Shown: positions 28,561 through 32,712 of the stretch, piece by piece
Position numbering within the stretch: the first letter of the stretch is position 1
Layout: each line of letters opens with the position of its first letter
NCBI GenBank assembly: GCA_001885315.1
Contig: MLPZ01000012.1
Coordinates: forward strand, 1-64,000
From: Treponema sp. CETP13
Lineage (GTDB): Bacteria; Spirochaetota; Spirochaetia; Treponematales; Treponemataceae
Length of the DNA: 64,000 bases
Direction of reading: 5' to 3'
Program-made: the position numbers and the translations under genes
Notes under the pieces: model-generated
Seen by the model: the letters and a program-made list of their open reading frames with translations, nothing else
Databases searched by the model: none
Told to the model about the DNA's origin: nothing

Positions 28561-30339
28561 ATGAGTTATTTTTACCATAGAAAAAAAACCTTACTAATAG
28601 GTAGCTTAGTATTAATAATCTTAAATAGTAGCTGTTCTCAATATAAAGAATCATCATTATATTTAAGTACAAACAATTTTATAACAAATCAGGATGAAAA
28701 ATCAAATGCGACTTTGCAAGAAAAGTCTGCTTTTGTTGCCCTCAATTCTAATGCTCTAAAAGCTGCTATACCAAGCAATTACGATTCGAAATATATGTTT
28801 TTTGCTTTCCCTTCTGATATTTCACAAGATTCGATTGATTCGCTTGAAAAAAAAGCAGCACTCTCGCTTAGTTTTTCTGGAGCTCAAGAAGGAAAAACTA
28901 TAAACATAGCTTTTTTGTATGGGCAAGACTTTGAAGCCAAGTATAAATTAGTTAAAAACTTAAAACCTAGATCTATAATTACTGGTCTTTTAGGTTCTCA
29001 CAATTCTATTGGAAATTTAACTATAAGTTTAGAAATAGATAAAAATGTTCGTGGCTTTCTTGTTTCAAGCGATGGGCCTATTACTATAACAAAAGCAGAA
29101 CTAACAAAAGTTAAGTATGGATGGCAGAGAACGGAAACAGGAAATTGGTATGGTTTTTCTGAAAAAGGAGGAAAACTCCCCAATATTGTAAATGGTACGC
29201 TTGCAGAAAAAGTACTTTTCGATTTTACACATTGTGAGTCTGCTAATAAAGTTTTTAAAGTATTTCTTGACGGTAAAGATTATGGTACTGTCGAGGAGCA
29301 AACAAAAAGTGAATTACAGTTTGGAACAGATGTGATTACAGTTCTCCGTGCTCCTAAGCAAAATAGTATTACATTATTTCCTTCTATTTTTGAGCAATCT
29401 GGAGTAGTAGTTTCGGCAACAAAAAATGCAGATATGATTAGTGGAGTGATTCTTATTGCTGATCCTAATAAGACCTATGACACAACAGAAGAGATTGTCC
29501 CAGTGGTTGCTGATCCCGGAATTATTGTTAATTGGCCACAAAAAAGATGGCGTTATGATGGATATGAGGTGTTTAAGTGGGAACAGTTTCCAGATATTCT
29601 TGTTTTTGATACAAAAGACTATGCAACGCAATCAAAAATGTTTAAAAGACTTGCTTTTTATCTCGAAAAAACAGGGTATACGGGGACTCTTTGGCCAGAT
29701 GAGGTTATTGCTAATCAACATGGCTATAATGCCCATGATTATCAAGCAAAGGATTTGGCTGCTTTTTTTGCAAAAGCAGAAATAGAATTTTTTCCTTTAA
29801 ATGAAAGAGAATTGCAACTAAAAGATATTTTATTTCAAAATGGTATAATAAAACGTGATAAAAATAATAAGATAGTTGCAGGGAGTGGTGCAATTGCTTC
29901 AATCTCTCGTGAGATACCTTCTTATTTAAGAATGAAATTGCTCACTCACGAAATGCTTCATGGCTTATATTTTACTCATGAAGAATATAGAAAGACAGTT
30001 GCAAAAGTTTTTGCTGTAACAGATCCCCAATCTCTTAAGTTTCTATTAACATTTTGGGAGAAAAATCCTTCGTTAGGCTATGACACAGATAATACATTCC
30101 TTGTACAAAATGAGTTTATGGCATATATGACGCAACAATCGGTAAAAACAATACCACAATATTATGCTCAAAACATTGCAAACTGGAAATCAACTAAGCG
30201 GGATTTACCCGAATTAGCAGAATACATACAAAAAACCAATGCTTCGGGATTTGTTGCAGCCTCTAGTGCAATTCAAGAGTATTTATTTAAAACTTGGGGT
30301 TTTGCTTCTGGTCGAGTCTCTTTAGTCTTCTTAAACTAA
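28561..30339 (+). CDS. Large lipoprotein with a zinc-peptidase-like HExxH motif
   Basis: A 592-residue protein with a lipoprotein leader ending LNSSC (Cys25 region). Residues 463-467 are HEMLH, the HExxH zinc motif, and NEFMAY with Glu518 about 50 residues later could supply the third ligand as in gluzincins. A beta-rich domain rich in Ser/Thr precedes it (30-330), and a substrate-like or amidase-like region (KWEQFPDILVFDTKDYATQ) follows. I do not recognise the family. No ribosome binding site is visible, and a TATTAT box 7 bases before the ATG raises the possibility of a leaderless mRNA. Confidence 0.78.
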   Translation: MSYFYHRKKTLLIGSLVLIILNSSCSQYKESSLYLSTNNFITNQDEKSNATLQEKSAFVALNSNALKAAIPSNYDSKYMFFAFPSDISQDSIDSLEKKAALSLSFSGAQEGKTINIAFLYGQDFEAKYKLVKNLKPRSIITGLLGSHNSIGNLTISLEIDKNVRGFLVSSDGPITITKAELTKVKYGWQRTETGNWYGFSEKGGKLPNIVNGTLAEKVLFDFTHCESANKVFKVFLDGKDYGTVEEQTKSELQFGTDVITVLRAPKQNSITLFPSIFEQSGVVVSATKNADMISGVILIADPNKTYDTTEEIVPVVADPGIIVNWPQKRWRYDGYEVFKWEQFPDILVFDTKDYATQSKMFKRLAFYLEKTGYTGTLWPDEVIANQHGYNAHDYQAKDLAAFFAKAEIEFFPLNERELQLKDILFQNGIIKRDKNNKIVAGSGAIASISREIPSYLRMKLLTHEMLHGLYFTHEEYRKTVAKVFAVTDPQSLKFLLTFWEKNPSLGYDTDNTFLVQNEFMAYMTQQSVKTIPQYYAQNIANWKSTKRDLPELAEYIQKTNASGFVAASSAIQEYLFKTWGFASGRVSLVFLN

Positions 30340-30902
30340 TCATATTGGATTTTTATATTAAATTGTTTTTCGACTCCTACAGTAGTTGGAGGACCATGAC
30401 CTGGTAAAACTTCAATATCATCTTGTTGAGAAAGAAGCTTTAATTTTATATTTGAAGCAAGAGTTCTTTCTGCATACGTGTTGTTAGTACTGCCATAACT
30501 TCCTGCAGTGAGAGTATCTCCAGTAAACATGACTCGTCCAATTTTAAACACCATTGAATCCGAAGAATGTCCTGGAATTGACATATACCCGACAGAGAAT
30601 CCTGCAATTCTAATTACGCCGTCACCTTTTATAACTACTGTATCAACTCCGGCGACTTCATAATCAGCGGCATAAATTTTTGGATTGTATATTTTTCGTA
30701 AAGTAGATAGTCCTTGAAGGTGAGTTGTATGATTATGAGTTATTAAGCATGCGGTTAAGTTATAAGGGCCTCGCTCAATTTGTTGAATCATATTGTTAGT
30801 AATAACACCAGGATCAATAATAATTGCCTGCATTGTTTCTTCATTTGTAACAATATAAGTGTTAGAAAAACCGTGAATGTTTAGATGAAAGTAAATTTTC
30901 AT
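30336..30902 (-). CDS. Metallo-beta-lactamase-fold hydrolase with altered metal motif
   Basis: A 188-residue MBL-fold protein of the glyoxalase-II-like group. It has the strand-turn IIIDPGVI, the metal motif as THNHTTH (His56, His58, Thr60, His61), PGHSSDSMV, MFTGDTLTAGSYG and LPGHGPPT near the C-terminus. The usual HxHxDH Asp that binds the second metal is Thr here. It overlaps the 3' end of the lipoprotein gene by 4 bp (convergent) and the pentapeptide gene by 4 bp (same strand). Confidence 0.87.
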   Translation of the reverse strand: MKIYFHLNIHGFSNTYIVTNEETMQAIIIDPGVITNNMIQQIERGPYNLTACLITHNHTTHLQGLSTLRKIYNPKIYAADYEVAGVDTVVIKGDGVIRIAGFSVGYMSIPGHSSDSMVFKIGRVMFTGDTLTAGSYGSTNNTYAERTLASNIKLKLLSQQDDIEVLPGHGPPTTVGVEKQFNIKIQYD

Positions 30903-31531
30903 TCGTTTATCTCTTCATTTTTAGAAAAAATAGCTTCTCTAGTATTTGACATCTTAAATGAAACATTTTCTTGTTCCATTTCCATAAAATTAGTCCTTTT
31001 TAAGTTACAGTTTCTAAAGGATGTGTTCATAAGTTTTGTTTTTATAAATCTAGAATTGTAAAGATCTGAATCATCAAATGATGACTGATAGGCACTCATG
31101 CCACAAAAATTATCTTGAATTAAAGTAGAATTAGTAATTAAAGCGTGAGAAAAAATACACCCTCCAAAAGAGGTAAACATGATTTTTGATTCTATAAGAT
31201 TACAATCAGAAAAAATTGCATAATCAAAAAAAGTTAATCGCGTTCGTAAATTTTCTGACTGAATATTAGTAAAGGTACAATGTTGAAATGTACATCCAAA
31301 AAAACTTTTATTTGAAAGATCCATATTTTCAAAATGAATCTCTGAAGCACAGATTCCAACAATAACATCATGAGTTTTAACGTATTGTCTAATTTGCGAT
31401 TGTGTCTCTTCTATGTTTTTGCAATGTTCTAAGCAGTATCCTTGTTCGTTTGTTAATTCCCCATTTTCGTCAAATGAAGAAATAGCAGCTTTTCGGCAAG
31501 ATGGATAGTCACAATTGTTCAATATAAACAT
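30899..31531 (-). CDS. Pentapeptide-repeat protein with N-terminal Cys-rich motif
   Basis: A 210-residue protein. An N-terminal zinc-finger-like stretch (CDYPSC at 7-12 and YCLEHC at 32-37) is followed by a pentapeptide-repeat region of the A(D/N)Lxx type from about 70 to 190 (DLSNKSFFGCTFQHCTFTN, then further imperfect repeats such as LYNSRFIKTKL). The stop overlaps the MBL gene start by 4 bp. There is no ribosome binding site. The ATG is 6 bases after TACGAT, itself 17 bases from TTGACA. Its role is unknown. Related folds shape membrane or topoisomerase partners. Confidence 0.8.
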   Translation of the reverse strand: MFILNNCDYPSCRKAAISSFDENGELTNEQGYCLEHCKNIEETQSQIRQYVKTHDVIVGICASEIHFENMDLSNKSFFGCTFQHCTFTNIQSENLRTRLTFFDYAIFSDCNLIESKIMFTSFGGCIFSHALITNSTLIQDNFCGMSAYQSSFDDSDLYNSRFIKTKLMNTSFRNCNLKRTNFMEMEQENVSFKMSNTREAIFSKNEEINE

Positions 31532-31537
31532 GCTACT

Positions 31538-31566
31538 ATCGTATGTTATTGCACTTATTATGTCAA
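31538..31566 (-). promoter_or_regulatory. Leaderless promoter of the pentapeptide gene
   Basis: On the minus strand TTGACA (31561-31566), 17 bases, TACGAT (31538-31543), 6 bases, then ATG at 31531. It overlaps the divergent promoter at 31549-31577. Confidence 0.7.
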
Positions 31567-31577
31567 ATGTTTATCAT
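31549..31577 (+). promoter_or_regulatory. Leaderless promoter of the zinc-ribbon gene
   Basis: TTGCAC (31549-31554), 17 bases, TATCAT (31572-31577), 6 bases, then ATG at 31584. It overlaps the divergent promoter on the other strand. Confidence 0.7.
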
Positions 31578-31583
31578 ACGTAT

Positions 31584-31865
31584 ATGTGTTGGAAATGTGG
31601 AAAAGAGACAAAGATAAATGGATTTGTAAGTCGTTCCGATGTTTGCCCAAATTGCGGGGCAGATATTAGAAGTTGTAAAAATTGTGTTTTTTATGAGCCT
31701 GGGGCTCATTATGATTGTCATGAAACAATTGATGAATTAGTTACTGACAAAGAAAGATCAAACTTTTGTGATTATTTTAAGTTAAATAGTATTGGCGATT
31801 CAAAGAAAAATTCTAATAAATCAGAAAATTCAAAAGATGCTTTTAACAAATTATTTGGAGATTAG
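31584..31865 (+). CDS. Zinc-ribbon protein
   Basis: A 93-residue protein. It starts directly in the first zinc knuckle (MCWKCGKET), followed by CPNCGADIRSCKNCVFYEPG and a His/Cys-rich tail (HYDCHETIDELVTDKERSNFCDYF), a pattern of unknown function found across bacteria. Longer in-frame starts at 31515 and 31560 lack ribosome binding sites. ATG 31584 lies exactly 6 bases after a -10 box. The C-terminus is Ser/Asn/Lys-rich and probably flexible. murI begins 4 bp after its stop. Confidence 0.82.
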   Translation: MCWKCGKETKINGFVSRSDVCPNCGADIRSCKNCVFYEPGAHYDCHETIDELVTDKERSNFCDYFKLNSIGDSKKNSNKSENSKDAFNKLFGD

Positions 31866-31869
31866 TTAA

Positions 31870-32712
31870 ATGCAATCTTTATCTTACTTAGAACAGTCCC
31901 CCATACCTATAGATTTTGCTTTTTTAGATTCTGGTACAGGGGGACTTCCATATATGCAATACTTAAAAGATGTATATAAAGATGTTTCATGCATGTATTT
32001 GGCCGATACTCAAAATTTTCCTTATGGTGAAAAAACACCCGAAAAAATAATTGAATCTGCAATATTTGCTGTTAGTGCAATTTTAAAACGATATAAACCA
32101 GCCGCAATTGTCATAGCTTGTAATACTATGTCTGTTACAGCTCTTGAATCTCTACGGAATAAATTTCCGCAAATTCCTTTTGTTGGAACAGTACCTGCAA
32201 TAAAGCTTGCTGCAAAAATTACAAAAAACAAACGCATTGGTTTGCTTGCAACTCGCCAAACTGTTACTCATCCTTATACAAAAAAACTTGAAAGTGAGTT
32301 TACGCAAAATTGCGTTGTTGTAGAACGAGGGGATCCCGATTTAATAAATTTTATAGAGCATTCTCTTGATACAGCAACTAAAAGCGAAATAGAAGCTGCT
32401 ATTATGCCAGCTATTTCTTTTTTTAAATCTAAACATGTTGATGTACTTGTACTTGGGTGTACACATTTTTTACGTATTGCGAATATCATACAAGAACTTG
32501 CAGATAAGATCACTGTGATTGATTCTAGGGATGGTGTTGTACGCCAGGCTTTTAAAGTTGCAAACAAGGCTAAATTTATGCATAAACAGGAGTCTAAAGG
32601 TGACAATAAAATCTCACCATCTGTTTTTTATATAACAGGAAAAGAGCCTTATTTCGGATTTTATGAAAAAGTAGCTTTAAAAGCTGGTATTATATATGGT
32701 GGTATAATTTAA
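31870..32712 (+). CDS. murI: Glutamate racemase
   Basis: A 280-residue cofactor-independent racemase that supplies D-glutamate for peptidoglycan. DSGTGGLPYMQYL is at residue 17. The two catalytic cysteines are in IACNTMS (about residue 82) and LGCTHFLRI (about 196). GGAG precedes the ATG within the end of the zinc-ribbon gene. It is probably transcribed with that gene. Length is normal for MurI. Confidence 0.94.
   Translation: MQSLSYLEQSPIPIDFAFLDSGTGGLPYMQYLKDVYKDVSCMYLADTQNFPYGEKTPEKIIESAIFAVSAILKRYKPAAIVIACNTMSVTALESLRNKFPQIPFVGTVPAIKLAAKITKNKRIGLLATRQTVTHPYTKKLESEFTQNCVVVERGDPDLINFIEHSLDTATKSEIEAAIMPAISFFKSKHVDVLVLGCTHFLRIANIIQELADKITVIDSRDGVVRQAFKVANKAKFMHKQESKGDNKISPSVFYITGKEPYFGFYEKVALKAGIIYGGII

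Follow-up and report, generated by a model that had tools for sequence, protein, structure and literature searches.

Bidirectional promoters, as described by Warman, Grainger and co-workers, direct transcription from two divergent starts within one stretch of DNA, where one RNA polymerase excludes another (PMC12825309). The elements described there share a -10 sequence, and the starts that were tested lie 10-23 bp apart. Five mutually exclusive bidirectional promoters of E. coli are reported there to show no substantial competition at basal strength and to compete only when one direction is strongly raised; exclusion therefore need not mean switching. Overlapping polymerase sites are also found at the divergent promoters Pc and Pr of pLS20 (PMC4207663) and at those of the EcoRV restriction-modification system (PMC5333194). 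In the sections of these accounts that deal with the promoters, pLS20 has the regulator RcoLS20 and the EcoRV system a C protein, and the former indicates that a switch can be made from overlapping promoters if a regulator affects the two in strongly different ways. Leaderless bacterial genes, for their part, have TANNNT some 12 bp upstream of the start; a survey of them tabulates such genes in 6 of 18 spirochaete genomes, with a mean of 3.9%, and the part cited here classifies genes singly and mentions no interlocked pairs (PMC3160421).

Here, we describe a 52-bp region that separates two divergent, predicted leaderless genes in the window, the 64-kb stretch of a 2.54-Mb Treponema genome that was analysed. 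As at a bidirectional promoter, one stretch would serve two divergent starts under polymerase exclusion, which we infer here. In contrast to the promoters of that work (PMC12825309), the -10 sequences are separate, the -35 sequences interlock and the predicted starts are 53 bp apart, so that the region falls outside bidirectional promoters in Grainger's sense (a shared -10 and starts about 10-23 bp apart). Its overlapping polymerase sites resemble those of pLS20 and EcoRV, whereas no counterpart of RcoLS20 or of the C protein was found for the window, and the promoter descriptions of those systems do not include two leaderless genes back to back (PMC4207663, PMC5333194). Both window genes fit the leaderless class by the placement of their -10 sequences, yet they form an interlocked pair rather than the single genes considered in the part of the classification cited (PMC3160421). 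In the open-access library searched, we found no report of this locus among the papers listed on leaderless genes or on divergent or overlapping promoters, and no paper on the gene pair.

Methods

The family search matched 199 of 274 family genomes. The family set comprises 121 loci, 116 of them distinct; 25, 26 and 5 came from searches, and 65 were picked down the match lists, giving a non-random sample in which near-identical loci remain. The spacing of -10 sequences was scored across the order in 145 divergent loci. Motifs were tested in 12 genomes selected by hand, many of them already known to carry the interlock, and the secA set consists of the 30 genomes with the highest scores among 56 matched (60 searched), the window's genome included.

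Interlocked promoters were counted by a strict rule that demands, on both strands, TTG, a spacer of 16-18 bp, TANNNT and 5-8 nt to the start, with each -35 lying in the other promoter's spacer. The rule misplaces the start of L006 (gap of 128 bp, 53 by inspection), leaves L058 and L093 outside the divergent set and, because it picks the -10 nearer the start, assigns L007 a -35 offset of 7. Since it fixes TTG and TA...T, the invariance of these letters within the strict set is built in, and loci were therefore also selected by gap alone.

Results

The two ATG codons, read from the sequence, are 52 bp apart, with the minus gene starting at 31531 and the plus gene at 31584. The predicted minus promoter consists of a -35 (TTGACA, 31566-31561), a 17-bp spacer and a -10 (TACGAT, 31543-31538) followed after 6 nt by the ATG at 31531-31529. 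The plus promoter has a -35 (TTGCAC, 31549-31554), a 17-bp spacer and a -10 (TATCAT, 31572-31577), again 6 nt from the ATG at 31584. Each -35 lies inside the spacer of the opposite promoter (minus spacer 31544-31560, plus spacer 31555-31571), and the two spans, 31538-31566 and 31549-31577, overlap in opposite directions, an arrangement that is conserved. The gap, promoter spans and interlock claimed by a sequence-only reading of this DNA are thus exact, and the zinc-finger-like cysteines that it noted are present in both products in the window.

The minus gene (30899-31531) encodes a pentapeptide-repeat protein of 210 aa (PF13599, E 1.6e-15) whose N-terminus has the form C-x4-C...C-x2-H; similar N-termini occur in most divergent loci of the order. 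It overlaps by 4 bp a second minus-strand gene (30336-30902) for an MBL-fold, glyoxalase II-like hydrolase (PF00753, E 3.2e-12; TIGR03413 below cut-off). On the plus strand, a small Zn-ribbon protein of 93 aa (31584-31865) is followed by the glutamate racemase gene murI (31870-32712; TIGR00067, 177 bits, above cut-off). The closeness of the genes suggests that each pair forms one operon. None of the four products was named a transcription regulator by family searches. The Zn-ribbon protein has no family match above cut-off, and its best matches, all weak, are to the zinc ribbon of RNA polymerase subunit P/Rpo12 (E 0.006 in a search of solved structures and 7e-6, far short of the cut-off, in NCBIfam). 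Close relatives identified by protein belong to records named Treponemataceae bacterium, Treponema sp., Spirochaetaceae and Spirochaetes bacterium. At the far end of the locus, a gene for a predicted lipoprotein of 592 aa (28561-30339) converges on the hydrolase gene, their ends overlapping by 4 bp; Pfam yields no match to the protein above cut-off (the best has E 0.12), and the protein contains HEMLH, which we take to be an HExxH-like motif. A neighbour similar to it stands in the same position at 17 other loci among 40 examined.

Both -10 sequences are placed for transcription from the start codon. Among 145 divergent loci across the order, TANNNT lies 5-8 nt from the ATG of the plus gene in 142 and from that of the minus gene in 131, whereas shifted windows of the same size contain it in 1-54 of 145, most of them in fewer than 20. 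This conserved distance supports, on comparative grounds, the claim that both genes are leaderless and, since there would be no leader to regulate, the accompanying claim that leader regulation has no place here. The same spacing also characterizes three other families of the order, none with interlocked promoters. It is less regular in one of the three, f4, in which only 7 of 15 minus genes have a leaderless -10 and several others have a purine-rich, Shine-Dalgarno-like stretch, and among the 36 plus genes of the window's family not counted beside a divergent pentapeptide gene, 17 of which have leaderless spacing. Family f3 (for example L077, L223, L224 and L240) has a conserved and unusual pentapeptide-gene -10, TAGCCT in 12 of 25 loci or TAGGCT in 7 of 25, often after TG. 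Within 464 kb of the window's genome, TTG, a 16-18-bp spacer and TANNNT precede the first ATG by 6 or 7 nt in 26 of 387 genes; 48 other offsets together gave 77 matches, about 1.6 each, which makes leaderless placement a genuine, if minority, class in this genome. Such a class is in line with the few per cent given for spirochaetes in the portion of the survey cited (PMC3160421).

A single sequence would not prove these promoters. A consensus scan returned 5 sites, where shuffled sequences averaged 5.4; it listed the minus promoter without the plus promoter and, being at chance level, is useless alone. The plus open frame also contains other possible starts (TTG 31515, ATG 31530 and ATG 31560). 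The resemblance to promoters could thus be fortuitous, with the real promoters elsewhere or the plus gene starting further upstream. However, 48 of 50 homologue matches align from residue 1 of the protein that begins at 31584 (MCWKC), and conservation across the family loci largely refutes this explanation, leaving it very improbable. By the strict rule, 55 of 80 distinct divergent family loci with usable starts are interlocked, 54 of them with a -35 offset of exactly 12 bp, and the layout is thereby kept across much of the family, as the comparison of the gene pair in relatives proposed in the sequence-only reading now reveals. The other 25 fail the rule, and in 36 of the 116 distinct family loci the pair was not counted as divergent and adjacent. 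Five loci (L005, L006, L022, L058 and L093) that fail the rule or its choice of start are interlocked by eye. When family loci were chosen by gap alone (48-60 bp between starts, n=59), ATTG, at the plus -35, was present in 59 of 59, and GTCAA, at the minus -35, followed exactly 14 bp after ATTG in 54 of 59. On comparative evidence, it is conservation, not the single sequence, that makes the predicted interlocked promoters real.

The elements are not equally constrained. In 1343 locus pairs of the strict set, whose Zn proteins average 51% identity, identity at letters left free by the rule is highest in the minus -35 (0.87), followed by the plus -10 (0.52), the plus -35 (0.44) and the minus -10 (0.39); the baseline, taken from fourfold sites, is 0.29-0.30. 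The 6 bp that separate the two -35s score 0.54 and the flanks of the -35s 0.64. Constraint is therefore strongest in the minus -35 and its surroundings and weakest at the free letters of the minus -10. A hexamer identity of 0.78 covers three of the four hexamers and is inflated by rule-fixed letters. Counted from the plus -35, near-invariant bases also occur outside the hexamers: G at -4 (54/55), A at -1 (55/55), T at +10 (53/55) and A at +18 (54/55). Plain promoters do not require them, and a bound regulator could explain them. Extended -10 promoters have G at -14; the minus promoter has a near-invariant C at -14 (window 31545, a plus-strand G in 54 of 55 interlocked family loci). The composite pattern was found in 10 of the 12 selected genomes, and 10 of its 11 matches were at this locus, with none in the reversed control; the sole match elsewhere precedes an unrelated transporter-like gene. 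The interlock is kept in L013, L017, L020, L025 and L094, where the minus protein is without the N-terminal cysteine pair, so the layout and the zinc cysteines are not linked.

All 57 interlocked rows fall in one family clade of 106 rows with a support of 99 (FastTree, with long-branch warnings), and they include its deepest branches. The interlock label changes 13 times on the tree, at least 9 of these changes being forced; the simplest account is one origin with several losses. The number of changes cannot itself separate gain from loss. Leaderless starts seem to be older than the interlock, which seems to have been both gained and lost. Outside the family the interlock was absent from all 65 divergent loci (among 86 distinct loci), where gap and -35 register vary: offsets of +1, 0, -8, -11, -14, -15, -19, -20, -22 and beyond were seen, with the -35s overlapping at 0 or +1 in 5 loci and lying at -6 to -30 in 19. 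At this gene pair in other families, one -35 seemingly serves both directions (L219 and L220; L027, L030 and L175), either as the palindrome TTGCAA or as TTGCCAA read as TTGCCA and TTGGCA.

These observations bear on the main rival to a functional arrangement, namely that compaction drove two independent leaderless promoters into each other and trapped them, small insertions or deletions being unable to separate them and exclusion having no function. Leaderless spacing across the order without the interlock, the wide variation in gap and register outside the family and the repeated changes on the tree are what such a history would leave. The extra conserved bases argue against it, as does secA, described below, where a pair of -35s is again interlocked or shared; we regard such a trap as possible but on balance unlikely.

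The sequence-only reading went further and proposed a hard-wired either/or switch, which the comparison does not establish: exclusion alone is no switch, and the coupling appears dispensable. Among 31 searched family genomes without a divergent partner at the Zn gene, 28 retain the pentapeptide gene elsewhere or farther away, and 25 of the 27 separated copies with a usable start have TANNNT 5-8 nt before it; because the gene is kept apart, mostly with a close -10, coupling to the Zn gene can be done without. Four of the separated loci (L251, L252, L255 and L264), together with the divergent L144, retain by eye a similar -35 along with vestiges of the plus one.

A switch in which polymerase exclusion and a regulator make the operons mutually exclusive states would be favoured by an exclusive geometry kept over a family and by the near-invariant bases outside the hexamers. 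It would also be consistent with the third base of the minus -10, which is T in 0 of 56 interlocked against 24 of 46 non-interlocked family rows and which has changed at least 15 times among 54 loci without once becoming T, as if the promoter may be kept weak. However, a tree-aware comparison, in which 1-3 of 9 pairs are informative, did not reach significance, and in family f3, with mostly wide gaps, the minus -10 is non-T in 24 of 25 loci. The idea that a weak minus -10 balances the pair is accordingly suggestive and was set aside as a separate explanation. Nor did the conserved core WTTAGTCAAATG or the composite pattern reveal a regulon in the 12 selected genomes: the core had 12 matches, 6 at this locus, against 9 in the reversed control, and is no dispersed motif. 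With the genes apart in many relatives as well, a regulated switch is conceivable and unproven, and we consider it improbable.

A second case is found at secA (G000 C16, start 17995; L161:17936-17995), which in the window's genome diverges from a lipoprotein gene. The plus -35 is TTGCCT and the minus -35 TTGACT, at an offset of 11 bp; the predicted -10 lies 7 nt from the ATG of secA and 9 nt from that of its partner. The site matches a variant pattern with 8 free bases between TTGC and GTCAA, where the window's site has 9. Among 30 loci, the window's own included (L302-L331, the best 30 of 56 matched genomes), a lipoprotein relative diverges from secA in 21 of 30; both promoters are present by the rule in 12 of 30 and 18 fail it. 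The 12 loci, also among the best 30 of 56, have an offset of 11 in 3 and of 1 in 9, and TTGTCAA at the latter could serve both directions. Of 62 divergent pairs in the 464-kb sample, 49 have a gap below 200 bp, and two others among these 49 are leaderless on both sides by the rule (gaps 96 and 99).

These cases raise the idea of a recurrent design across the order, in which leaderless divergent operons share or interlock their -35s, often about a helical turn apart, and exclusion sets their ratio without a regulator. The Zn-ribbon/pentapeptide pair is leaderless by spacing on both sides, and at secA the secA side is; a palindromic TTGCAA or a TTGTCAA could serve both directions. The helical-turn part, drawn from offsets of +12, +11, +1, 0 and -11, is post hoc. 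We hold so general a design to be doubtful. Helical phasing of the -35s was itself rejected as unsupported overall, since modes at +12, +1/0 and -11 are contradicted by offsets of -8, -14, -15, -19 and -20.

Discussion

We favour the view, with a probability of roughly 0.68, that this region is a compact, balanced, constitutive divergent promoter pair rather than a switch. The 52-bp region would hold two complete housekeeping-type promoters, back to back, with each mRNA starting at the A of its ATG. The polymerase holoenzyme footprint far exceeds the 18 bp over which the two -35 hexamers extend, and simultaneous binding of two polymerases is therefore very unlikely; from this geometry and from known footprints, it is very likely that two polymerases cannot bind together. 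With one polymerase presumably at the site at a time, both operons would be fed from one entry point, and their ratio would be set by relative promoter strengths, the minus promoter relying on its near-consensus -35, its -10 being poor, and the plus promoter relying more on its -10. Transcription from these sites, co-transcription within each operon, exclusive occupancy and constitutive use are all predictions of this model, and the role of the region is likely to be compact, moderate, constitutive expression of both operons. As almost any insertion or deletion would damage one promoter of an interlocked pair, the layout should tend to last until the two genes are parted by a rearrangement.

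If the promoters function as predicted, the family has kept a natural module of 52 bp whose single polymerase entry point must serve two leaderless operons, an illustration of promoters fused to start codons with a leader on neither side. The separated versions in close relatives would be ready-made controls, and the module, if the favoured view is true, would make it possible to ask cleanly whether exclusion between polymerases is enough to set expression ratios.
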